64,000 nucleotides of DNA from Anaerolineae bacterium (GTDB lineage: Bacteria > Chloroflexota > Anaerolineae > JAFGEY01), in NCBI GenBank assembly GCA_016783145.1, contig JADHXD010000002.1:1-64000 (forward strand). The letters are read 5' to 3'. The stretch's first letter is position 1. Each line of letters begins with the position of its first letter. The notes under the pieces are model-generated. The model saw nothing but the letters and a program-made list of their open reading frames with translations. It had not been told where the DNA came from and did no database searches. Position numbers and translations under genes: made by a program. Shown here in pieces: positions 9,908 to 21,903 of the stretch.

Positions 9908-11035
9908 ATGAGCATGGATCACCTGGAACGTTTCCTGTCCGTGATGGAATATGAGCCTGTCGACAGGGTCCCAAACTGGGAGCTGGGGGTCTGGCCTCAG
10001 ACTCGCCAGAGCTGGGAGAGCCAGGGACTCGACGCGGCACGCCTGCACTGGAACTGGTTTGCCGGCGAGCTTGCCCTCGGTATGGATCCTCGCGAGTTCA
10101 TTCACTTTCGAGGGGAGATGATCCCGAGCTTCGAGCACCGAGTGTTGAGAGAGGATGAACGAACGGTGACCTTTCGAGACACACAGGGCAGGACACGCGT
10201 GGCACTCAAGGAGGGAACCATCAACGGCGGTCGTATGTCGATGGACCGCTACATCGGCTTTCCGGTGCAGAGCGCGGATGACTGGGAAGGAATAAAGAGG
10301 CGGTTCGATCCAGCCAGCCCACAACGGTACGAGCCCAACTGGCCGCAGCTACGTGCAGCGGGCTGGCAGCAGCGGCGACACCCACTCGTCTTCGGCCCAA
10401 ACTGCACGACACTGGGCTTCTACTGGTTTGCCAGGGAGCTGATGGGCACAGAAGGGCTGTCGTATGCGTGGTACGACCAACCAAGCTTGATACACGACGT
10501 GATGGAGTTCTGGGCCCACTTTCTCATCAAAGCCGCACAGCCGATACTCGAACATACCACGGTCGAGTACATCTGCCTCAGCGAAGATATGGCCATGAAA
10601 ACCGGCCCGCTGCTCAGCCCCCAGACGTATGAGACATTTATCTACCCCAGGCTGAGACGGGTGGTCGATTTCTTCAAGTCACACGGCGTCCGCTACGTCG
10701 CAGTGGATACGGACGGCAATCCCGAAGCGCTCATCCCGTGGCTGATGGAGGCCGGCGTCGACGTGGTTTGGCCGCTCGAGAGGGCCGCCGGTCAGGATCC
10801 CGTGCGGCTTCGCCGCAAGTTCGGCCGTTCCTTGCGGCTCTGGGGCGGGGTAGACAAGCGTGTTCTCGCTCAAGGCCCTGAAGCGATCGACAGGCACTTG
10901 CGAGCCCTCCTGCCCTTGATCGCTGAGGGAGGGTTCATCCCCACCGTGGATCACACCGTTCCACCTGATGTGACTTGGCGGAATTTCCAGCACTACCTGG
11001 AGAGCAAGGCTAGACTCCTGCACGGAGAGCTGTAA
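9908..11035 (+). CDS. Uroporphyrinogen decarboxylase-family (URO-D/MtaA-like) protein
   Basis: 375 aa; URO-D family pattern (TGPLLSPQTYETFIYPRLRRVVDFFKSHGVRYVAVDTDGN, LWGGVDKRVLAQG). Confidence 0.85.
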   Translation: MSMDHLERFLSVMEYEPVDRVPNWELGVWPQTRQSWESQGLDAARLHWNWFAGELALGMDPREFIHFRGEMIPSFEHRVLREDERTVTFRDTQGRTRVALKEGTINGGRMSMDRYIGFPVQSADDWEGIKRRFDPASPQRYEPNWPQLRAAGWQQRRHPLVFGPNCTTLGFYWFARELMGTEGLSYAWYDQPSLIHDVMEFWAHFLIKAAQPILEHTTVEYICLSEDMAMKTGPLLSPQTYETFIYPRLRRVVDFFKSHGVRYVAVDTDGNPEALIPWLMEAGVDVVWPLERAAGQDPVRLRRKFGRSLRLWGGVDKRVLAQGPEAIDRHLRALLPLIAEGGFIPTVDHTVPPDVTWRNFQHYLESKARLLHGEL

Positions 11036-11077
11036 CCTCGATTCGAGCCCGACCTCCCAAAGCCCAAGGAGAAGCAC

Positions 11078-12544
11078 TTGATGAAAGCCATCATGGTGAT
11101 GTTTGACTCTCTGAACCGACACATGCTGCCCCCCTATGGCTGTGAATGGGTGCGCGCTCCGAACTTTGAGCGCCTGGCCAGGCACGGGGTGACCTTTGAG
11201 AACAGCTACGTCGGCAGCATGCCCTGCATGCCAGCCCGACGCGAGATGCACACGGGACGCTACAACTTTCTCCATCGCAGTTGGGGGCCATTGGAGCCCT
11301 TTGACGACTCTATGCCCCAAATACTCGGGGAGAGCGGCATCTACACCCACCTGGCGAGCGATCACGGACACTACTGGGAAGATGGTGGCTGCACCTATCA
11401 CACGCGCTACACCACGTGGGAGATATCCCGGGGGCATGAGGGTGACCCTTGGAAGGGACAGATCGCCGATCCCGAGATCCCCGAATCAGTCGGTAGACAT
11501 TCGGGACGGATGTGGCGGCAGGACTGGGTCAACCGGCAGCATATGCAGCGCGAAGAGGATCAACCGCAAGCCAAGACGTTCGCCCAGGGGCTAGAGTTCA
11601 TCGAGACCAATCACGATCAGGACAACTGGTTCCTGCACATAGAGACCTTTGACCCCCACGAACCCTTCTACACCCAAGCTCAGTACAAGGCGTTGTACCC
11701 ACATCACTACGATGGTCCGCACTTTGATTGGCCACCGTATGGACCGGCGCACGAGACGCCTGCGCAGGTCCAACATGCGCGCTACGAATACGCGGCATCG
11801 CTGAGCATGTGTGACGCGTGGCTTGGCAAGGTGCTCGACCTGATGGATAAGCACCATTTGTGGGACGATACGATGTTGATCGTCAATACCGACCACGGGT
11901 TCCTGCTTGGCGAGCATGACTGGTGGGCCAAGTGTGTCCAGCCCTTCTACGGCGAGGTCGCCCATTCGCCGCTGTTCATCTGGGACCCGCGTTGTGGCTG
12001 CCAGCATGAGCGTAGAACAGCCCTGGTGCAGACGATCGACCTGCCAGCCACTCTTCTCGAGTTCTTTGGCGTTCCCCTTCCTGTGGACATGCAGGGCGCT
12101 CCGCTGCGTGAGACCATCGCCACAGACAAGCCTGTGCGCCACGCAGCCCTCTTTGGGCTGCACGGTGGGCACGTCAACGTCACAGACGGGCGCTACGTGT
12201 ATATGCGCGCGCCCGCCACGCCAGAGAACTGCCCGCTGCACAACTACACACTGATGCCGACCCATATGCGGGCTCGGTTCAGTGTCGATGAGCTCAAGCA
12301 CGCCGAGCTGGCAGACCCGTTCTCCTTCACCAAGGGATGCCGCACCATCAGGGTGCCTGCTCGGAGGTGGCCCGGATCCCACCCATTCCAGACCTTGCTG
12401 TTTGACCTGAGGACCGATCCCAAGCAAGAAAACCCGATCCAGGACGCGGACATCGAGGCTCGGATGATCCAGCAACTGGTCAGGCTGATGGAGGAGAATG
12501 ACGCGCCAAGGGAGCAGTTCACCCGCCTGGGACTATCTCACTGA
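11078..12544 (+). CDS. Sulfatase (formylglycine-dependent, Cys type)
   Basis: 488 aa; CMPAR (CxPxR) maturation motif followed by HTGR; NTDHGFLLGEHDWW. Confidence 0.92.
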   Translation: MMKAIMVMFDSLNRHMLPPYGCEWVRAPNFERLARHGVTFENSYVGSMPCMPARREMHTGRYNFLHRSWGPLEPFDDSMPQILGESGIYTHLASDHGHYWEDGGCTYHTRYTTWEISRGHEGDPWKGQIADPEIPESVGRHSGRMWRQDWVNRQHMQREEDQPQAKTFAQGLEFIETNHDQDNWFLHIETFDPHEPFYTQAQYKALYPHHYDGPHFDWPPYGPAHETPAQVQHARYEYAASLSMCDAWLGKVLDLMDKHHLWDDTMLIVNTDHGFLLGEHDWWAKCVQPFYGEVAHSPLFIWDPRCGCQHERRTALVQTIDLPATLLEFFGVPLPVDMQGAPLRETIATDKPVRHAALFGLHGGHVNVTDGRYVYMRAPATPENCPLHNYTLMPTHMRARFSVDELKHAELADPFSFTKGCRTIRVPARRWPGSHPFQTLLFDLRTDPKQENPIQDADIEARMIQQLVRLMEENDAPREQFTRLGLSH

Positions 12545-12616
12545 CCGCAGACAGCCAGCCACGGCTCTGCACTTCACCGGTCACGCGCCGCACACAACGC
12601 ACGGAGGAGACAGATT

Positions 12617-13729
12617 GTGAAAATCACCGACATCAAGACTTATCTTGTCAATGCCAACTCTGGCATGCATGCCGACCGGCCGAGAGGCAGGAACTGGGTC
12701 TTTTGCAGGATCGCCACGGATACGGGCCTGCACGGTGTGGGCGAAGGGGGCGGTTGGCCAGCGGTCGTGCAACGCGGTCTCGAGGAGATTGCGCCCCTGC
12801 TCATCGGCGAGGATCCATTCGCGATCGAGCGACTGTGGCTCAAGGTCTACGACGTGCTGCACGGGCACGGACTGACCGGCTCTGTGCGTGGGGGCGTGAT
12901 CAGTGCCATCGATATGGCTCTCTGGGACATCAAGGGCAAGGCACTCGGAGTACCCGTCTACGAGCTGCTGGGCGGCAAGGTGCGCGACAGAATACGACTC
13001 TATGCGCACGCCAGCTCCGTCGAGCAGGGACGCGCGCTAATCGAGAGGGGCTACACCGCCTTCAAGTGTAGCCCCTCCCCAGCAGTCCTGCGCACACTGC
13101 GCGAAGCGCTGGGCAACGATGTAGAGATAGGCGTCCACTGCCATGGCGAGTTCTCTCCTGGAGGTGCGCTGCAACTAGCCAGGGCCATCGAGCCCTGGGA
13201 ACCTGCCTTTCTCGAGGAGCCCACCCACCCGGATGACCTCGATGCCCTGGAGTGGCTGTCCAAGCGGACCAGCGTTCCGCTGGCATCTGGAGAAAGGCTC
13301 TTCTCCAAGTGGGCCTTTCGCGACCTGCTGCAGCGCCGGGCCATCGAGATCGCCCAGCCGGAGATCACGCGCATTGGAGGCATCACAGAGGGAAAAAAGA
13401 TCGCCACCCTGGCCGAGGCCTTCTCAGTCAAGGTAGCACCGCACGATGGCTCTGCCGGCCCCATCGCCGAGATGGCCAACATCCACGTACTGGCCTGCTC
13501 CCCTAACTGCATCTACCTGGAACACAAGGTGGGGGACGTGCCCTGGCGTACAGAGGTCGCCTCGGGCGTGATCCCTGAGGAGGACGGATACATTCCCGTC
13601 CCGAATCTCCCCGGTCTCGGCATCGACCTGAATGAGGAAGCGATCGCCGCACATCCGGTGTACGCCGTGCAAGAGCTAGAGTACCGTTTTCGCACACCCG
13701 AGGAGATGCAGCTACATCGGCCCGGCTGA
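12617..13729 (+). CDS. Mandelate racemase/muconate lactonizing enzyme family (galactonate dehydratase-like)
   Basis: 370 aa, GTG start; enolase superfamily pattern (DMALWDIKGKALGVPVYELLGGKVRDRIRLYAHA, FLEEPTHPDD, KVAPHDGSAGPIAEMANIH). Confidence 0.9.
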   Translation: MKITDIKTYLVNANSGMHADRPRGRNWVFCRIATDTGLHGVGEGGGWPAVVQRGLEEIAPLLIGEDPFAIERLWLKVYDVLHGHGLTGSVRGGVISAIDMALWDIKGKALGVPVYELLGGKVRDRIRLYAHASSVEQGRALIERGYTAFKCSPSPAVLRTLREALGNDVEIGVHCHGEFSPGGALQLARAIEPWEPAFLEEPTHPDDLDALEWLSKRTSVPLASGERLFSKWAFRDLLQRRAIEIAQPEITRIGGITEGKKIATLAEAFSVKVAPHDGSAGPIAEMANIHVLACSPNCIYLEHKVGDVPWRTEVASGVIPEEDGYIPVPNLPGLGIDLNEEAIAAHPVYAVQELEYRFRTPEEMQLHRPG

Positions 13730-13790
13730 AGCCCCGCGTCACAGAGATGCAGGAGGGTCTGCCGGGGCCTGTCGCTCTCCCTGCCCCGCG

Positions 13791-14681
13791 CTAGCGAAGG
13801 GCGCCCGCATCCTCCAGAACCTGGCGTAGTTTGGCCCGAGCCTCCTCTGAGAGCGGACCCACAGGCTGACGTGCCGGTCCGGCCGGCAGGCCGAGCATGT
13901 GCATCGCTTCCTTGACGACCATCGGGAATGTCCCCAGGCCGAAGGCCAGACGCACAGGCAAGAGACGCTCCTGCAGCGCCCTTGCCTCCCCCAAGTCACC
14001 TGCGGCGACCGCGTCGTAGATGCCCACTGCCAGGTCGGGCACAACGTTGGCTGTGGCGGTCACTGCACCCGTACCGCCGTGCAGCAGCGCCGCATAGATG
14101 AGAGAATCGCGTCCGACAAAGGCACGGAACCCGGGCGGACAGAGCCGCAGGTGCTCGGCAAACTGAGTGAGGTCCCCACTCGAGTCCTTGATCCCAGAGA
14201 AGTTCGGCGCGTCACGGGCTATGCGTGCCACAGTCGCCGGCGGCATCGGGACACCCGTCCGGCCGATGTTGTCGTAGGCCATCACAGGCAAACTCACCGC
14301 CGAGGCAATATCCATATAGTAGCGGTACAACTCCTCTTGGGAGGGCTTAATAAAGTAGGGGGTGATCGCGGCCAAGGCATCGGCGCCAGCCGCCTCAGCC
14401 CTTCTAGCCAAGGATACCGCCTCTCGGGTGGTCACAGCGCCCACGTGGGCCACGACAAAGACCTGCTCCTGAGCCGCATCAAGCGTCACCTCCAACACAC
14501 GCTGGCGTTCGTCGGTAGAGAGCGCATAGAACTCCCCCTGGCTGCCACCTGGGAACAGGCCGTGCACGCCTCGTTCGATGAGGAATCGTGTGACTACACG
14601 CAGTCCTTCTTCGTCGAGTGACTCGTCTGCTTTGAACGGTGTGATCATGGCGACGATGATCCCCGCGAGCTGCTTGTCCAT
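13791..14681 (-). CDS. Dihydrodipicolinate synthase/N-acetylneuraminate lyase family protein
   Basis: MDKQLAGIIVAMITPFKADESLDEEGL..., GGSQGEFYALSTDER, YDNIGRTGV, GIKDSSGD; AGGAGGT RBS upstream of internal Met at 14681. Confidence 0.92.
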   Translation of the reverse strand: MDKQLAGIIVAMITPFKADESLDEEGLRVVTRFLIERGVHGLFPGGSQGEFYALSTDERQRVLEVTLDAAQEQVFVVAHVGAVTTREAVSLARRAEAAGADALAAITPYFIKPSQEELYRYYMDIASAVSLPVMAYDNIGRTGVPMPPATVARIARDAPNFSGIKDSSGDLTQFAEHLRLCPPGFRAFVGRDSLIYAALLHGGTGAVTATANVVPDLAVGIYDAVAAGDLGEARALQERLLPVRLAFGLGTFPMVVKEAMHMLGLPAGPARQPVGPLSEEARAKLRQVLEDAGALR

Positions 14682-14753
14682 GGATGACCTCCTTCTCAGA
14701 GTCTGGATAGATGCCATTGTAGCATACTTTGGCACCTGCAACAAGCGGACTGA

Positions 14754-14762
14754 CCCTCGAGT
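14754..14762. repeat. Left 9-bp target-site duplication CCCTCGAGT
   Basis: Identical to 14885-14893, abutting inverted termini. Confidence 0.75.
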
Positions 14763-14884
14763 TAGGGCTGCTGCATAGTCCGAGGGGGGCGCATCCCCTG
14801 ATGCGTCCGGCTTGCTGGCGCACCGTGCCGCATCGGGGGATGCGGCACTCCTCGGTCAAGTCAAGAGACAATGCAACAGCCCTA
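14763..14884. mobile_element. MITE-like 122-bp non-autonomous element with TIR TAGGGCTG(C/T)TGCAT
   Basis: Left TAGGGCTGCTGCAT / right ATGCAACAGCCCTA (13 of 14 complementary), no ORF, further internal inverted repeats, flanked by 9-bp direct repeat CCCTCGAGT. Confidence 0.75.
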
Positions 14885-14893
14885 CCCTCGAGT
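14885..14893. repeat. Right 9-bp target-site duplication CCCTCGAGT
   Basis: Identical to 14754-14762. Confidence 0.75.
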
Positions 14894-14976
14894 GAGGAGT
14901 ATCGCGGTCAGGGAATGGTGTCCCCTCACTCAGTCTGCGGAGCACCCGCGATGCGCCCCGTGGTGGTACCCTCGAC

Positions 14977-15005
14977 TTGACCAGGGGACGATGGCGTGGT
15001 ATACT
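14977..15005 (+). promoter_or_regulatory. Sigma70-type promoter TTGACC-N17-TATACT for the gntR gene
   Basis: -35 14977-14982, -10 15000-15005. Confidence 0.75.
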
Positions 15006-15019
15006 GGCGCTGTGGCCAG

Positions 15020-15032
15020 GTGGTCTAACCAC
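15020..15032. promoter_or_regulatory. Probable GntR/FadR-type operator GTGGTCTAACCAC
   Basis: Perfect palindrome with TGGT-N3-ACCA core immediately downstream of gntR promoter. Confidence 0.7.
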
Positions 15033-15071
15033 TCTACCAGAACGAAGACAAAGGGTTACACTGTGGACGAG

Positions 15072-15788
15072 ATGTTCGGCTTCCGCCTTCAGCGCGACAA
15101 GCTCTACAAACAGGTCGCTGACAAGGTCCAGGAACTGATCGCCGCCGAGTCTCTCCGGCCTGGCGATAAGCTTCCTGGCGAACGCGAGCTGGCGGACCGG
15201 ATGGGTGTCAGTCGCACTGTGGTTCGCGAGGCCATCCGCGTCCTGAGCGTCCGCGGACTGGTCAGAGTCAAGTCAGGCTGCGGGACCTATGTGCAGGAAC
15301 TGAGCCACAAGGATGCTGCGGCCTCTATCGAGCTCTACCTAAAGCTGCGGCAGGATGCGTGTTCCCTCCAGGATGTCCACGAGGTGCGGCGAATGATCGA
15401 GGTCGAGACAGCCGGACTGGCCGCCCAGCGGGCAACGGAGAGTGACCTGGCGGCTATGGAAGCGGCGCTCAGGGATATGTCCGCCCACCGGCACGACCCG
15501 GCCAAGTACGCGTTCTATGATTTGGCCTTCCACACTGCAGTTGCGGCAGCCACGCACAACGACCTTTTTGGCGTCCTCCTTGGCCCGATCTCTGACCTGC
15601 TCATGCAGATCGTTCGGGTCTCCGTGGACGCGCCAAGAGCGATGGACGTCGGTCTGGCGCATCACCGTCGAATTCTGGAAAAGATCAGGGAACGAGACAA
15701 GGAAGAGGCCAGGCAGGCGATGAGCGATCACCTCGACCAGGCCCGCAGACAGGTAGAAACTGTCCGCAAGCAAACGGACTCACCCTAG
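15072..15788 (+). CDS. GntR family (FadR subfamily) transcriptional regulator
   Basis: MFGFRLQRDKLYKQVADKVQELIAAESLRPGDKLPGERELADRMGVSRTVVREAIRVLSVRGLV (wHTH) plus FCD domain. Confidence 0.93.
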   Translation: MFGFRLQRDKLYKQVADKVQELIAAESLRPGDKLPGERELADRMGVSRTVVREAIRVLSVRGLVRVKSGCGTYVQELSHKDAAASIELYLKLRQDACSLQDVHEVRRMIEVETAGLAAQRATESDLAAMEAALRDMSAHRHDPAKYAFYDLAFHTAVAAATHNDLFGVLLGPISDLLMQIVRVSVDAPRAMDVGLAHHRRILEKIRERDKEEARQAMSDHLDQARRQVETVRKQTDSP

Positions 15789-15813
15789 AATTCACCTGAA
15801 AGGAGATGGAGGA

Positions 15814-16665
15814 ATGGAAAAGCGAAAGCTCGGTAAGACAGGCGAGCGTCTCTCTGTGGTCGGTTTTGGCGGAATCGCAGTCATGGATGAAGAGCCAAGC
15901 GTCGCAGGGCAGCTTGTTGCCACGGCAGTCAACGAGAGAGGGATCAACTACTTTGACGTGGCACCCTCCTACGGCAATGCCGAAGAGCGCCTGGGACCAG
16001 CCCTTGAGCCGTATCGTAACTCGGTCTTCCTGGCCTGCAAGACGGGCAAGCGCAATGCGAAAGATGCGGAGGCTGAGCTCACGACATCGCTAGAACGTCT
16101 GCGCACAGACCACTTCGATCTGTACCAGCTACACGCAGTCACGACGATGGAGGATGTCAATGAGATTCTCGGCCCTGGCGGCGCGTTGGAGACATTCGTT
16201 CGGGCGCGAGAGAAGGGCCTCGTGCGCTTCTTGGGATTCTCCGCCCACTCAGAGGAGGCTGCCCTCGCCTTGATGGACCAGTTTGCGTTTGACACGATCC
16301 TCTTTCCCATCAACTGGGTCTGCTGGCACAAGGGCAAGTTCGGTCCAAGGGTGCTTGAGAGAGCGAGCGAAAAGGGAATGGGCATCCTGGCCCTCAAGAC
16401 GATGGCCAAGCGCCGCTGGCGAGAAGGCGAGCAGCGCAAGTGGAGCAAGACCTGGTACTCTCCGGTAGATAGCTTTGAGGAGGCCTTGGGCGCAGTTCGC
16501 TTCACGCTCTCCAAGCCGATCACCGCCGGCACAAGCCCGGGTCACGCCCAGCTACTGTGGTGGATGTGCGATGCGGCGGACCAGTTCACACCCATCACTC
16601 CCAAAGAGGACGCTGAGCTTTCTCGGCGCGCTCAGAAGCTCGATCCCATCTTTCCTCAGGCTTAG
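15814..16665 (+). CDS. Aldo/keto reductase
   Basis: 283 aa; LGKTGERLSVVGFGGIAVMD, DVAPSYGNAEERLG, FDLYQLHAV. Confidence 0.9.
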   Translation: MEKRKLGKTGERLSVVGFGGIAVMDEEPSVAGQLVATAVNERGINYFDVAPSYGNAEERLGPALEPYRNSVFLACKTGKRNAKDAEAELTTSLERLRTDHFDLYQLHAVTTMEDVNEILGPGGALETFVRAREKGLVRFLGFSAHSEEAALALMDQFAFDTILFPINWVCWHKGKFGPRVLERASEKGMGILALKTMAKRRWREGEQRKWSKTWYSPVDSFEEALGAVRFTLSKPITAGTSPGHAQLLWWMCDAADQFTPITPKEDAELSRRAQKLDPIFPQA

Positions 16666-16726
16666 TGGAGCGCTCTGATGGGACGCGAGCTAAGAGCCTG
16701 ACCTTCGATACCTGACAATCAAAACC

Positions 16727-16907
16727 GTGGCATAGCAGCCGGGTGTTGATCCCCCGGCTGCCCCACGTTGTCCGCGTCTCTGCGCGGACAAAGAGTACGA
16801 TGGCTGCGGTTCCCGTCATCGATGCGCGCTGAGACACAGAGCACAAGCTCGATGCTGCACGCTGGTCCTGAGCCTGGGAATGCACACCAGCGGCTCAGCC
16901 GAGCCGC
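16727..16907 (+). other. Hairpin-rich intergenic segment upstream of D-2-hydroxyacid dehydrogenase gene
   Basis: Perfect stems GCAGCCGGG/CCCGGCTGC (16735-16743/16753-16761), TTGTCCGCG/CGCGGACAA (16768-16776/16783-16791), GCGGCTC/GAGCCGC (16890-16907). Confidence 0.5.
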
Positions 16908-16993
16908 CGCCATCGTGCCCCCGAGCTGGCGGGTTGGCCGCCAGAATAGAGCATGGGCAGTGATCGGGCACGGATCGAACTGGCAGAGGAACT

Positions 16994-17956
16994 ATGAGCA
17001 CAATCGCAATCGGATATGAACCGGGGGCGCTGTCAGAGGGACATCTGGCAAGCATCCATCGGCTGGCCCCAGACATGGAGATCCTGGTCACCGAGGATCG
17101 CGCCGAGATCCAGGCCGCACTGGACGAGATCGAGATCGCGGCTCGCCGCTTTCCGCATGACCTGGTCCTCAAAGCGAGCGGTCTGCGCTGGTTTCAGCAG
17201 TGGGGCGCCGGTGCGGACTGGCTGCTGCGCTACCCTCAAGTAGCAGACCTGGACCTTGTGGTGACGAATGCTTCAGGAGTGCACGCCATCCCCATCAGCG
17301 AGCACATACTGGCTTTCCTGCTCGCTTTTGCTCGCGGTCTTCACTCAGCAGTCCGCGCCCAAGAACACCGCACGTGGACAAGAGGCGTCGGCGAGGACGT
17401 CTTTGAGCTGGCCGGGAAGACCATGGTCCTCGTCGGTGTCGGCGCGATCGGTGGGCGGACGGCGGAGATAGCCACGGCACTCGGGGTAGAGGTGTTCGGA
17501 GTACGTCGACATCCGGCTGCTGACGCACCCAGTGTAGCCGCGATGTACGGTCCCGACCGTCTGCTGGATCTGCTGCCGCGAGCCGACTTTGTCGTCCTCA
17601 CCGTTCCCTTGACGCCTGAGACCAGGAATATGATCGGGGAGCGCGAGCTGCGGGAGATGAAGCGGACGGCCTACCTCGTCAACATCGGCCGGGGCGGAAC
17701 CATTGAGCAGCGAGCGCTGATCCAGGCGCTGCAGCAGGGCTGGATCGCTGGCGCGGGCCTGGATGTCTTTGAGACTGAGCCCCTGCCAGAGAGCTCGCCG
17801 CTGTGGCAGATGCCCAACGTCATCATCACCTCCCACTATGCCGGACGTACGCCGCACTATGAGGAGCGGGCAATGGCGATCTTTGTGGAGAACCTGGAAC
17901 GGTATCGAGCGGGAAAGCCGCTGCGCAACGTGGTAGACCCGGTGCTCGCCTACTGA
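16994..17956 (+). CDS. D-2-hydroxyacid dehydrogenase (NAD-binding)
   Basis: 320 aa; VGVGAIGGRTAEIATALGVEVFGVRR, LVNIGRGGTIEQRALIQALQQGWIAGAGLDVFETEPLP. Confidence 0.92.
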   Translation: MSTIAIGYEPGALSEGHLASIHRLAPDMEILVTEDRAEIQAALDEIEIAARRFPHDLVLKASGLRWFQQWGAGADWLLRYPQVADLDLVVTNASGVHAIPISEHILAFLLAFARGLHSAVRAQEHRTWTRGVGEDVFELAGKTMVLVGVGAIGGRTAEIATALGVEVFGVRRHPAADAPSVAAMYGPDRLLDLLPRADFVVLTVPLTPETRNMIGERELREMKRTAYLVNIGRGGTIEQRALIQALQQGWIAGAGLDVFETEPLPESSPLWQMPNVIITSHYAGRTPHYEERAMAIFVENLERYRAGKPLRNVVDPVLAY

Positions 17957-18248
17957 GCTGGTCGCCCTGGTCGCCCACACCGGCGACCCGGATTTGCCCA
18001 TCGTGCGCTGGGACAATCCTTTCAAGCCCAGACAGAGAGTCCGCGGCGTACAGTGGCACGACGACGAGATCGGCGTCGCCGGATGCCTGATAAGTCTGGT
18101 CCACGCCGTGCGCGACGGCGAAGAACCTACCTATGGGCCTCTGCAGGCGCGGCTGGATCAAGCGGTAACGCCTGCTATCCGGCAGTCATCACGGCAGGGC
18201 GGAAGCCCTGTAGAGTTCCCTTTGGACCCAGCCGCGCAGCGCGAGTGA
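17957..18248 (+). pseudogene. C-terminal remnant of a Gfo/Idh/MocA-type oxidoreductase
   Basis: Reading frame ...RWDNPFKPRQRVRGVQWHDDEIGVAGCLISLVHAVRDGEEPTYGPLQARLDQAVTPAIRQSSRQGGSPVEFPLD resembles the extreme C-terminus of Gfo proteins; no Rossmann domain upstream. Confidence 0.55.
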
Positions 18249-18320
18249 GTGGGGCGCGCCGGACGAACACAAGGCACGGATCACAGCTTTCTGTGACGAG
18301 ACAGAGGAGGAATCAACTCG

Positions 18321-19343
18321 ATGCAGTACCGGCGATTTGGCGGATTGGACTGGGAGGTTTCGGCACTGGGGTTTGGCTGTATGCGACTACCCGTCCAGGA
18401 CGGCGACAGTTCCAACATCGATGAATCCGAAGCGATACGAATACTTCACTATGCCATCGACCACGGGGTGAACTATCTGGATACAGGCTATCCCTACCAC
18501 GGAGGAAACAGCGAACGCGTGGTGGGCAATGCGCTCAGAGGCGGGTATCGGGACAAGGTCAAGCTGGCGACCAAGCTCCCCGCTTGGGCAGTCGAACGTA
18601 CGGAGGATTTCGACAGGTACCTCAATGAACAACTCGACAAGCTGCAGACCGAGCACATCAAAGAGATCCTTGACTACTATGAAGATTGGGCGCTCTGCCA
18701 GATCCAGTACAACTATATGAACGAGGAGGTGCAGGCGGGCACAAAGGGTCTCGAGTACGCCGCCTCAAAGGGTGTGGCAGTCGTTGTGATGGAACCTCTG
18801 CTTGGCGGCAAGCTGGCGGACCCTCCACGACCGATCCAAGACTTGTGGGACACCGCACGCACAGAGCGCTCGCCCGTCGACTGGGCGCTGCAGTGGCTGT
18901 GGAACAAGCCTCAAGTGTCGACCGTTCTCAGCGGAATGAGCACGATGGAGCAGGTTGTACAAAATGTCCGCAGCGCCAGCGCGTCGCGCGTGGGCAGCCT
19001 GGACGCGGACGAACTGGCTTTGGTTTCACAGGTACGCACCAAGTATGACGAACTGTGCCCAATCCCCTGCACGCAGTGCCGCTACTGCATGCCGTGCCCG
19101 AACGGCGTCGACATCCCGCGCAACTTTGCCACTTTCAACACGGGCGTGATGTACAACACGTTTGGGAGTGCCCAGGGCGGATACGCCCGCATTCCCGAGG
19201 ATGCAAGAGCAAGCGCGTGCATCCAGTGTCGTCAATGCGAGGAGCTCTGCCCCCAGAGCATCGCAATCAGCGAGTGGATGCCGGTTGTGGATCAAGTGCT
19301 GGGCGAAGGACATCCCTACGAGGAGTGTCGGATCCCGCAGTAG
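18321..19343 (+). CDS. Aldo/keto reductase with C-terminal 4Fe-4S domain, apparently internally deleted
   Basis: 340 aa; AKR N-terminus, CTQCRYCMPCPNGVDIPRNF and CIQCRQCEELCPQSI; continuity broken at LQTEHI-KEILDYYEDWALCQIQYNYM where DFYLLH... segment is expected. Confidence 0.85.
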   Translation: MQYRRFGGLDWEVSALGFGCMRLPVQDGDSSNIDESEAIRILHYAIDHGVNYLDTGYPYHGGNSERVVGNALRGGYRDKVKLATKLPAWAVERTEDFDRYLNEQLDKLQTEHIKEILDYYEDWALCQIQYNYMNEEVQAGTKGLEYAASKGVAVVVMEPLLGGKLADPPRPIQDLWDTARTERSPVDWALQWLWNKPQVSTVLSGMSTMEQVVQNVRSASASRVGSLDADELALVSQVRTKYDELCPIPCTQCRYCMPCPNGVDIPRNFATFNTGVMYNTFGSAQGGYARIPEDARASACIQCRQCEELCPQSIAISEWMPVVDQVLGEGHPYEECRIPQ

Positions 19344-19447
19344 CTTCGGAGACTCTATTCCCCCAGACAGCGCGGGTATCCGGGCCGAATCAAGACATCG
19401 CTTTCACGCTTCAGCCGCTGTCCTGCGGACACCGGCTGCTGCGTCTA

Positions 19448-21739
19448 TCACCGCGCCTCCTGCCGGTGGATGTGATGGTCCTGCTGTTCGCGACTGAGCA
19501 TCGTAAAGTAGGCGCACCATCCTCCCATACGAACCCGCAGCGACTCATAGCGGTCAGGTTCCCTCTGTGCGGAGCGCAGTTCTTCCGTGTCGGCTACCGT
19601 CAGCGTCATCATCGCGCCGCCAGTGTCCACAAAACCGCGAACGAGTCCGACCATGCGCTGCGTGCCCTCCTCACCCAACACCAGGCGCTTGGACAAGCGC
19701 AGGTCCAGGGGCCCTCCGGCGGGCAAGTTGCACTGGTTCATCTTGGCGTATGAGAGGATCGCGCCAGGAATGCCCTCGGCATCACGCCCCAGGGCCGGAG
19801 AGAAATTGGAGGATACCGGTTCGCCTGACCGCCTCCCATCGGGCGACGAGCCAAGACCCTGGCCGATACCGATGTACCAGGAGAACGTCCCCACACCACA
19901 AGGAAACTTGATGGCCGAACGGTGCGCTTGCGCATGCTGGTGGACGATCGATGTAAAGGCCTCGATGAGTTCACGCCCGACGGCGTCGGCCCGGTCGTCG
20001 TCGTTCCCATACTTGGGTGCCGACAGAAGCTGAGCACGAAGGGGCTCGTACCCGCAGAAATCCGCGTCGAGCGCTTCGCAGAGGTCGGCCATTGTGGCTC
20101 GACTCTGCTCAAAGATCACTGTCTTGATGGCTGTCAGGGAGTCGATCGCATGCGCAGCGCTTTCGGCAAGCATACCGAACGTGCGATACTTGGCCCCGCC
20201 AGCGGTCATATCGCGACGGGACGCGATCGCCCCGTCGATCAGGGCGCTCAGCAGCGGCACAGGCGCGATCGTACTCCGCTCGTCGATCGTGTCCGCGACC
20301 TGCTGCACGACCCTACCCACCATAGAGTCCAGTTGTCTCAGAAATGCCTGCCAGACCTCCTGGTAAGTGGTGAAAGCACGCGGGTCACCCGTATCGAGAC
20401 CCGCCTGGAGCCCATCTGTGCGACCAGCGCCCCGGTTAAGCACCCATTCCAGGCAGAGCATCATGCTCAGTCGCTGGAAGCGAAAGTCCGTCCGCCCTGG
20501 GATGATCACCTCCCAGCACCCATCATTGGTATAGTCACGCGCATCCCCGACCGGCATGCCAATCCGTACCAGGTCCGGGACGATCGCTTCGTCGTTAAAG
20601 ATCGCTGGCATGCCCCCACCCTCCTTGAGCACCTCGCAAGTCCGGATGACAAGCTCTTCAGGCGAATCTCGGTGCAGGCGTACGGTGAGCAGTGGATTGG
20701 TCATCCGGTTGCGGCGATAGCTCTCCAACAGCAAGAAGGTCAGGGGATCAGTCCCATCTGCGCCGTCAGGCTTGAGGCCGCCGATCACGATGTTCTGGAG
20801 CCAGTGGTTCGTGGCGTCGAGGCTGTCTCGATCGGTCCCGATCTGAGAAGAGGTATCGTGTCGCGTGCGTCGGGCGGCCTCCACCGACTCAGGCGTGCGC
20901 GCCTCGGGCCGCTGCTCTTCTATGGTCTGTGCACGCTCGTTGAATTTCAGGCAGAAGCAGTCCACCAATTCCGCCGCCCGCGGGAGGGTCAGCCGACCGC
21001 TTTCCAGATCGGCCCGCAAGTAGGGCCACGCGTACTGGTCCAGCCGCCCCACTGCGTTCCCATTCATCGTGGAATGAAACACCATATGCAGCAGCCATAC
21101 GGCCTGAAGCGCCTGCCAAAACGTCCGAGACGGACCTGCCGGCGCCTGGCGCAGGTTCTCAGCCATCTCAAAGAGCTCTGAAGCTCGCTGCTCGTTCCCC
21201 TCTGCCCTCGCTTCATCCTCGCATCTCTCGGCCAAGCGCTGGGCATAGTCCACAACCGCATCCAAGGCGATCGCGACAGAGTCGAGAAAGGCGGCTTCCT
21301 CATTTGTCCCCGCTTGACACCGCTGTTCTTCGGCCTCGGCGCGGATCCCACGCAGGCCCTTGCCCAGCAAGGTCGGATAGTCAGGCACGATGTGACCAAA
21401 GACCGAGCGGATACTCAGTCTTTGTTCTGCCGCCGCCTTCCGCTCGCTTTCAGTCGTGTATTCTGGAAAGCCGCGTTCGCAGTGTACGCGGGGGGACTCC
21501 AGGGTCATCGAGCCAGCAAAGAGCTGTCCTTCCCACAGGTCTGTCGGCATCTCCGCGAGCTTGCGAGCGATCGCCCGAGCCTTGCGTACCGGCAGCGGCT
21601 CTGACATAAAGCGTGACTCGATGTACGTGGGGCCGAGCCACCCTACCGGCGGCTGCTCCATTGCGGCACGCACTCGGTGCCTCAGATCGGCAACTCTTGG
21701 GGTATCCCTCAACTCCTCTATCCTCATATGGTCTGTCAT
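19448..21739 (-). CDS. Glycyl radical enzyme (PFL2/glycerol-dehydratase-like superfamily)
   Basis: Catalytic-Cys loop NDGCWEV (CxE) and C-terminal glycyl motif RMGGWCAYF; N-terminal GRE pattern; RBS-consistent internal Met at 21739. Confidence 0.88.
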   Translation of the reverse strand: MTDHMRIEELRDTPRVADLRHRVRAAMEQPPVGWLGPTYIESRFMSEPLPVRKARAIARKLAEMPTDLWEGQLFAGSMTLESPRVHCERGFPEYTTESERKAAAEQRLSIRSVFGHIVPDYPTLLGKGLRGIRAEAEEQRCQAGTNEEAAFLDSVAIALDAVVDYAQRLAERCEDEARAEGNEQRASELFEMAENLRQAPAGPSRTFWQALQAVWLLHMVFHSTMNGNAVGRLDQYAWPYLRADLESGRLTLPRAAELVDCFCLKFNERAQTIEEQRPEARTPESVEAARRTRHDTSSQIGTDRDSLDATNHWLQNIVIGGLKPDGADGTDPLTFLLLESYRRNRMTNPLLTVRLHRDSPEELVIRTCEVLKEGGGMPAIFNDEAIVPDLVRIGMPVGDARDYTNDGCWEVIIPGRTDFRFQRLSMMLCLEWVLNRGAGRTDGLQAGLDTGDPRAFTTYQEVWQAFLRQLDSMVGRVVQQVADTIDERSTIAPVPLLSALIDGAIASRRDMTAGGAKYRTFGMLAESAAHAIDSLTAIKTVIFEQSRATMADLCEALDADFCGYEPLRAQLLSAPKYGNDDDRADAVGRELIEAFTSIVHQHAQAHRSAIKFPCGVGTFSWYIGIGQGLGSSPDGRRSGEPVSSNFSPALGRDAEGIPGAILSYAKMNQCNLPAGGPLDLRLSKRLVLGEEGTQRMVGLVRGFVDTGGAMMTLTVADTEELRSAQREPDRYESLRVRMGGWCAYFTMLSREQQDHHIHRQEAR

Positions 21740-21903
21740 CCGCGATCCCTCCAGGCTCAACCAGACAGCTATCACTCCGTTCTACGCCCGCGCTCTGCCT
21801 GTAGGGTGTGATTGTACCACGGAAGACAGCGCAAGGCAAGGTCTGCCTGCTCTGCCTGCCAGCGAGCAGGAACGAAAAAGAGCGTCACTCGCGGCACCGG
21901 GGC

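Follow-up and report, generated by a model that had tools for sequence, protein, structure and literature searches.

The 122-bp repeat described here is a genuine miniature transposon (MITE) that lands almost only at one position, 18–19 bp upstream of the -35 box of ordinary promoters. This element resides in a 64,000-nucleotide stretch of DNA from an Anaerolineae bacterium (hereafter called the window). An initial annotation of the window proposed a MITE with terminal inverted repeats (TIRs) and a 9-bp target duplication. The promoter-targeting rule went unnoticed in that annotation and is the main result of this study. We consider it highly probable that the repeat is a non-autonomous MITE of the ISAs1 family, inserted in trans by an ISAs1-type transposase at a fixed place relative to sigma70/sigmaA promoters. 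The element and its surroundings are arranged in the window as follows.

13791–14681, minus strand: dapA-like gene (PF00701, dihydrodipicolinate-synthase family; assigned with Pfam), driven by the target promoter
14694–14688, minus strand: ribosome-binding site (RBS) AAGGAGG of the dapA-like gene, from the sequence
14716–14721, minus strand: -10 box TACAAT of the target promoter, with a 17-bp spacer and one mismatch
14739–14744, minus strand: -35 box TTGTTG of the target promoter, with three mismatches to TTGACA
14745–14753, minus strand: 9-bp gap between the target duplication and the -35 box
14754–14762, no strand: target duplication CCCTCGAGT, copy nearer the promoter
14763–14884, plus strand: non-autonomous element without an ORF of its own, 122 bp, classed as an ISAs1-type MITE from its sequence and BLASTN copies
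14763–14780, plus strand: left TIR TAGGGCTGCTGCATAGTC, which faces the promoter in every in-register copy of the source genome
14790–14805, plus strand: inner inverted-repeat arm CGCATCCCCTGATGCG
14829–14844, plus strand: inner inverted-repeat arm CGCATCGGGGGATGCG
14855–14865, minus strand: subterminal CTTGACTTGAC (minus-strand reading), present at the right end only
14867–14884, minus strand: right TIR, the end away from the promoter
14885–14893, no strand: target duplication CCCTCGAGT, copy farther from the promoter
14977–15005, plus strand: separate, unoccupied promoter of the gntR gene, TTGACC-N17-TATACT
15063–15788, plus strand: GntR/FCD regulator gene, a neighbour outside the element (assigned with Pfam)

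The anatomy reported in the initial annotation is borne out by the sequence. The 9-bp direct repeats at 14754–14762 and 14885–14893 are identical, the ends TAGGGCTGCTGCAT and ATGCAACAGCCCTA agree at 13 of 14 positions, and the TIR arms at 14763–14780 and 14867–14884, when extended to 18 nt, pair at 16 of 18. Inverted repeats in the interior are likewise present, at 14790–14805 and 14829–14844. The suggestion that the whole element could fold into a hairpin agrees with the finding that it is far more foldable than shuffled sequence, both as DNA (z = -7.9) and as RNA (z = -8.1), with 0 of 200 shuffles as good. Rfam matches of the element were sub-threshold microRNA models that recognise only the hairpin, and these were rejected. 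The presence of CTTGACTTGAC inside the right end makes the two ends unequal, and this position is occupied by TTGACA in related elements. Most of these related elements (G047, G050, G183, G199) carry TTGACA about 20 bp inside one tip, and in insertion sequences (ISs) this inner motif could be the transposase promoter.

It had also been proposed that the element is inserted in a divergent promoter region. The element does lie between the dapA-like and gntR genes, but it interrupts no promoter, being located just upstream of the -35 box of the dapA-like gene, and the gntR promoter is separate (14977–15005). The dapA-like gene, on the minus strand, has its ATG at 14681, downstream of TTGTTG-N17-TACAAT and AAGGAGG, and the window copy occupies the 18-bp-type register upstream of this promoter. 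The target promoter is weak when taken alone and was not reported by a consensus promoter scan; it is credible because it shares its register with the other sites described below. The surrounding catabolic cluster (window positions 9908–21775) encodes a URO-D-type protein, a sulfatase, a mandelate racemase/enolase-type enzyme, the dapA-like protein, the GntR/FCD regulator, two aldo/keto reductase-like proteins, a 2-hydroxyacid dehydrogenase and a large glycyl-radical-enzyme-like ORF, with some assignments made with Pfam and the rest made by eye from the ORF list.

Further copies of the element, and full ISs sharing its ends, were among the items for which the initial annotation had suggested searching, and both exist. 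A BLASTN search with the 122 bp yielded dozens of copies in the source genome at 82–100% identity, and ISAs1-family ISs of 1.3 kb with the same type of ends were found in relatives. The element is therefore neither a solitary copy nor devoid of ISs with matching ends. The source genome is a 4.98-Mb draft in 233 contigs that is often broken at repeats, and contig ends frequently fall in copies of the element, as expected of repeats. From this draft, 61 copies could be extracted with their flanks, and thus at least 61 are present. These define 44 primary insertion sites, each with its own target duplication, whose length is 9 bp at 33 sites, 10 bp at 10 sites and 8 bp at one site. The consensus end of the copies is TACGGCTGTTGCA(A/T). 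The 122-bp sequence was not found outside its own genome in searches with left-end patterns against genome and viral contigs and with the element against phages; its ends alone are shared.

An element that is short, palindromic, numerous and foldable could instead be of the REP/REPIN type, moved by a RAYT (TnpA-REP) protein. Target duplications and conserved TIRs are not features of REPs, and this explanation is refuted by the duplications at 44 sites and by TIRs that are shared with ISs encoding DDE transposases. We therefore give it practically no weight.

From the left end outward, almost all sites present the same series of features, namely the duplication, 9 bp, TTGACA, 17 bp and TATAAT, with the promoter directed away from the element. 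A sigma70/sigmaA promoter (TTGACA-N17-TATAAT with at most 4 of 12 mismatches) begins at 18 or 19 bp in 36 of the 44 sites, compared with a background of 0.0016 (P about 1e-92). With at most three mismatches, 33 of the 44 sites retain a promoter in this register, against a background of 0.0006 (P about 1e-97). The background is the same statistic computed at every position of the surrounding DNA, with the sites themselves included, and is hence conservative. The rule was first noticed on part of the 44 sites and then tested, and the gap to the background is far too large for that to matter. When offsets from 5 to 39 were scanned on the promoter side, promoters were found at offsets 18 (27 sites), 19 (nine sites) and 17 (one site) and at no others, and the far side of the element has no promoter in register at the sites of the source genome.

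The precision of this arrangement is also evident when the register is not imposed. A free search of offsets 10 to 40 located a promoter at 40 sites, 36 of which have exactly 9 bp between the duplication and the -35 box. A 9-bp duplication goes with offset 18 (27 sites) and a 10-bp duplication with offset 19 (nine sites). The fixed 9-bp gap, together with a duplication length that tracks the offset, suggests that one cut is precise and the other floats by one base. The positions conserved at the sites are those of sigma70 promoters, including an enriched TG of the extended -10. About four of the 44 sites have no promoter at all. The TGTCAA adjoining the element was considered as part of the mobile unit, and this idea was dropped because the motif is simply the -35 box in reverse and falls beyond the duplication.

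Several observations indicate that the targeted sequences are real promoters. Perfect TTGACA-N17-TATAAT sites number only 61 in the source genome (a reversed control pattern yields 0), and at six of the 61 an element is present in register (contigs C15, C99, C106, C127, C142 and C167). An RBS, start codon and ORF follow within 150 nt downstream at 14 of 37 sites versus three of 37 on the other side, with 11% expected at random (P = 2e-5). A tRNA gene starts shortly after the -10 box at L048 in the source genome and at L288 and L267. Separately, several perfect consensus promoters in G000 (for example C47:3193, C84:22975, C192:19695 and C195:290) share the longer ending TATGGTATAAT with occupied promoters, and promoters with this ending may constitute a family of related promoters.

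Judged from the window copy alone, with its weak promoter that escaped the consensus scan, the element might be regarded as an ordinary MITE without target preference, whose neighbouring promoters reflect chance or intergenic insertion. The register statistics and the occupancy of perfect promoters refute this explanation, and we consider it to be essentially without merit.

Every in-register copy of the source genome has its left end towards the promoter. Among relatives, many of which have near-identical ends, both orientations occur (10 versus 6 relative to the TTGACA-bearing end). Tandem pairs are present at seven sites, where the copies are separated by the same 9–10 bp target sequence. 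At four of these (L018, L021, L037 and L296) the tandem partners are 64–85% alike and each is nearer to a copy elsewhere, with the target sequence shared between them; for example, the promoter-proximal copies of L018 and L021 are 99% and 100% identical to copies elsewhere. These findings suggest that the same nucleotides were hit repeatedly by independent insertions. Local duplication was rejected for these four pairs, whose members come from different subgroups, and is possible for the other three (L022, L024 and L055), whose partners are 98–99% alike. In another family of the class, three copies of a related element were also observed in tandem, joined by the same linker (L059, G046:C228:12151-12560).

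Selection rather than targeting could in principle yield such a distribution, if the element inserted widely and only those copies just upstream of promoters survived because they are harmless or improve expression. Insertion upstream of the -35 box does spare both promoter and gene, and the 14 of 37 sites with a clear gene directly downstream fit this explanation. However, harmless positions would spread over many base pairs and both orientations, whereas 36 of 40 sites have a gap of exactly 9 bp, the orientation is constant and neighbouring offsets are empty. Repeated insertion at the same nucleotides likewise points to a choice of target. We therefore consider selection to be an unlikely cause, and favour fixed placement by a transposase.

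The probable source of such a transposase is indicated by related elements. In other genomes of the phylum, the ends ASGGCTGTTGCAAAGTC flank short elements of about 110–290 bp with unrelated interiors, and titled records with such ends are mostly from Chloroflexota (Anaerolineales, Chloroheliaceae, Oscillochloris and Chloroploca). Ends of the same type also flank ISs of about 1.3 kb in relatives, such as the L267 IS (1325 bp, with TAGGGCTGTTGCAAAGTC at both ends) and the G199:C1026 IS (1320 bp, with a 10-bp duplication). The single ORF of the L267 and L171 ISs matches PF13808 and PF01609, which is the ISAs1-family architecture, and the ISs of G199, G206, G170 and G264 coincide with NF033564 matches. 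The ISs with CAAAGTC-type ends (L267, L389, L171, L142, L164 and L393) group as one clade, with 99/98 support, in a tree of transposases. ISAs1-family elements are recognised by TIRs of the ...GGGCTGTTGCAAAGTC type and by 8–10-bp duplications; both are found in the ISs of relatives, and the duplications of the copies in the source genome are also 8–10 bp. Judging from these sequence features, the element is best filed as an ISAs1-derived MITE.

No recognisable ISAs1 or PF13808 gene was found in the source genome draft, with its 233 contigs and frequent breaks at repeats. A co-resident autonomous element with the same ends was likewise not found in this draft and is present in other genomes of the phylum. 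The evidence tying the element to ISAs1 is thus its ends, its duplication length and the target rule, from which we infer that ISAs1 moved the copies in the source genome. Across 298 genomes of the class, the ends and ISAs1 genes are weakly associated (18/42 versus 81/256, by hand tally).

A transposase of the Mutator superfamily was also weighed as the mobilising enzyme. TnGBS/ISLre2 (p-MULT 3) and the ISKra4 group (p-MULT 4) of this superfamily insert 15–17 bp upstream of sigmaA promoters, their unequal ends determine the orientation, and they have been proposed to contact the initiation complex of RNA polymerase (Guerillot et al. 2014, PMC3942029). The target habit and the connection between unequal ends and fixed orientation are therefore the same as those seen here, and the absence of ISAs1 genes from the source assembly would also fit mobilisation by an ISKra4-, ISLre2- or TnGBS-type enzyme. 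In contrast, the known Mutator elements are located 15–17 bp from the -35 box rather than 18–19 bp, no ISKra4 gene was found in the source genome, and the full ISs behind these ends encode ISAs1 transposases. Mobilisation by a Mutator enzyme thus appears quite improbable, and an ISAs1-type transposase is the preferred candidate.

The promoter rule extends beyond the source genome. MITEs of other genomes, which have different interiors, are in register in 19 of 45 cases with at most three mismatches (0.9% expected, P = 4e-27), as are 12 of 36 ISAs1 ISs of Chloroflexota (0.2% expected, P = 1e-23). Plasmids of other phyla (Photobacterium, Salinivibrio, Azospirillum and Streptomyces) supplied 14 ISAs1 ISs with recognisable ends, and none of the 14 is in register. 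These two counts suggest that the promoter habit belongs to part of the ISAs1 family and not to the whole. When this habit was mapped as a label on the ISAs1 tree, a single origin was not recovered, since the label needs 10 changes and performs no better than shuffled labels, a result explained by the many single insertions that show no promoter. ISAs1 ISs with GCAT-type ends (L118, L129, L132 and L135) are in several cases also in the 18–19-bp register, and the promoter at L129 is perfect. Judging from these ISs, the homing habit may predate the CAAAGTC clade.

We propose that an ISAs1-type DDE transposase acts in trans and would bind the TACGGCTGTTGCA-type ends. It would set one end of the duplicated target near -45 relative to the start site, with 9 bp left before the -35 hexamer, and make the second cut 9 or 10 bp further upstream, such that the duplication would cover roughly -53 to -45. 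These positions assume a 17-bp spacer and a start at +1, which places the -35 hexamer at -35 to -30, the gap at -44 to -36 and the duplication at about -53 to -45. The interval from -53 to -45 is the UP-element region, which is contacted by the alpha C-terminal domains of RNA polymerase. The ends are unequal, and the left end alone faces the promoter. Insertion keeps the promoter and gene intact, and one copy of the target ends up as far from the -35 box as the original was. Regeneration of the target next to the promoter would make the site usable again, which could account for copies that stack in tandem.

The transposase probably locates its site through the RNA polymerase holoenzyme or its promoter complex rather than through DNA alone. 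Docking on the polymerase-promoter complex, a contact that we infer, would account for the invariant register, for conservation that follows a sigma70-like pattern and for the bias towards good promoters. Direct reading of DNA by the transposase is a possible alternative to such docking. With either way of finding sites, insertion misses genes and does not damage the promoter core, and so the element spreads without breaking genes.

Promoter homing is thus already known in kind, and what is added here are the ISAs1-type ends, the 18–19-bp spacing and the repeated use of a target. Like TnGBS, ISLre2 and ISKra4, the present elements are DDE elements that insert at a fixed distance upstream of sigmaA promoters, with unequal ends and a fixed orientation. 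Unlike those elements, which use Mutator transposases and a 15–17-bp distance, these have ISAs1-type ends and an 18–19-bp distance, are non-autonomous and stack repeatedly at one site. The term 'ISAs1' does not occur in the study of the Mutator elements (PMC3942029), and we found no report of promoter homing by ISAs1 or by a MITE in the open-access literature, the scope of our search. The Chloroflexota ISAs1 ISs (L267, G199, G206, G264 and others) share the TAGGGCTGTTGCAAAGTC TIR type and, where detected, 8–10-bp duplications, and a third of them are in the same register, but they carry a transposase, which the window element does not, and their interiors are unrelated. MITEAba12 of Acinetobacter (PMC6382973) is also a short MITE (113 bp) with 9-bp duplications for which sigma70 promoters have been discussed. 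However, those promoters are inside the element and face outward, the reported preference is for AT-rich DNA, and the parent is ISAba12. An analogy made previously (PMC3942029) is with the Ty3 retrotransposon of yeast, which likewise takes a fixed place near start sites through contact with transcription factors and avoids genes, but Ty3 is an unrelated element that relies on eukaryotic transcription machinery and a retroviral-type integrase.

We lean, by a modest degree, towards a broader interpretation in which promoter homing arose in an ISAs1 clade of Chloroflexota separately from the Mutator superfamily, with the transposases of this clade probably docking on the promoter complex of RNA polymerase and sigmaA, and in which the MITEs of the clade stack repeatedly, in one orientation, at -53/-45, marking strong promoters genome-wide. 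The occupied sites provide a ready map of sigmaA promoters that are active in uncultured Chloroflexota. The element takes the place of the UP-element region, and so it offers a test of whether insertions change expression. As a possible tool, the system could place DNA upstream of genes that stay undisrupted. Among bacterial DDE elements, promoter-directed transposition has so far been described as a peculiarity of the Mutator superfamily, and the ISAs1 lineage provides a natural comparison for how transposases are steered to promoters. Base-precise homing in this lineage suggests that the habit has more than one origin, and that the promoter complex may be a recurrent safe harbour for mobile DNA.
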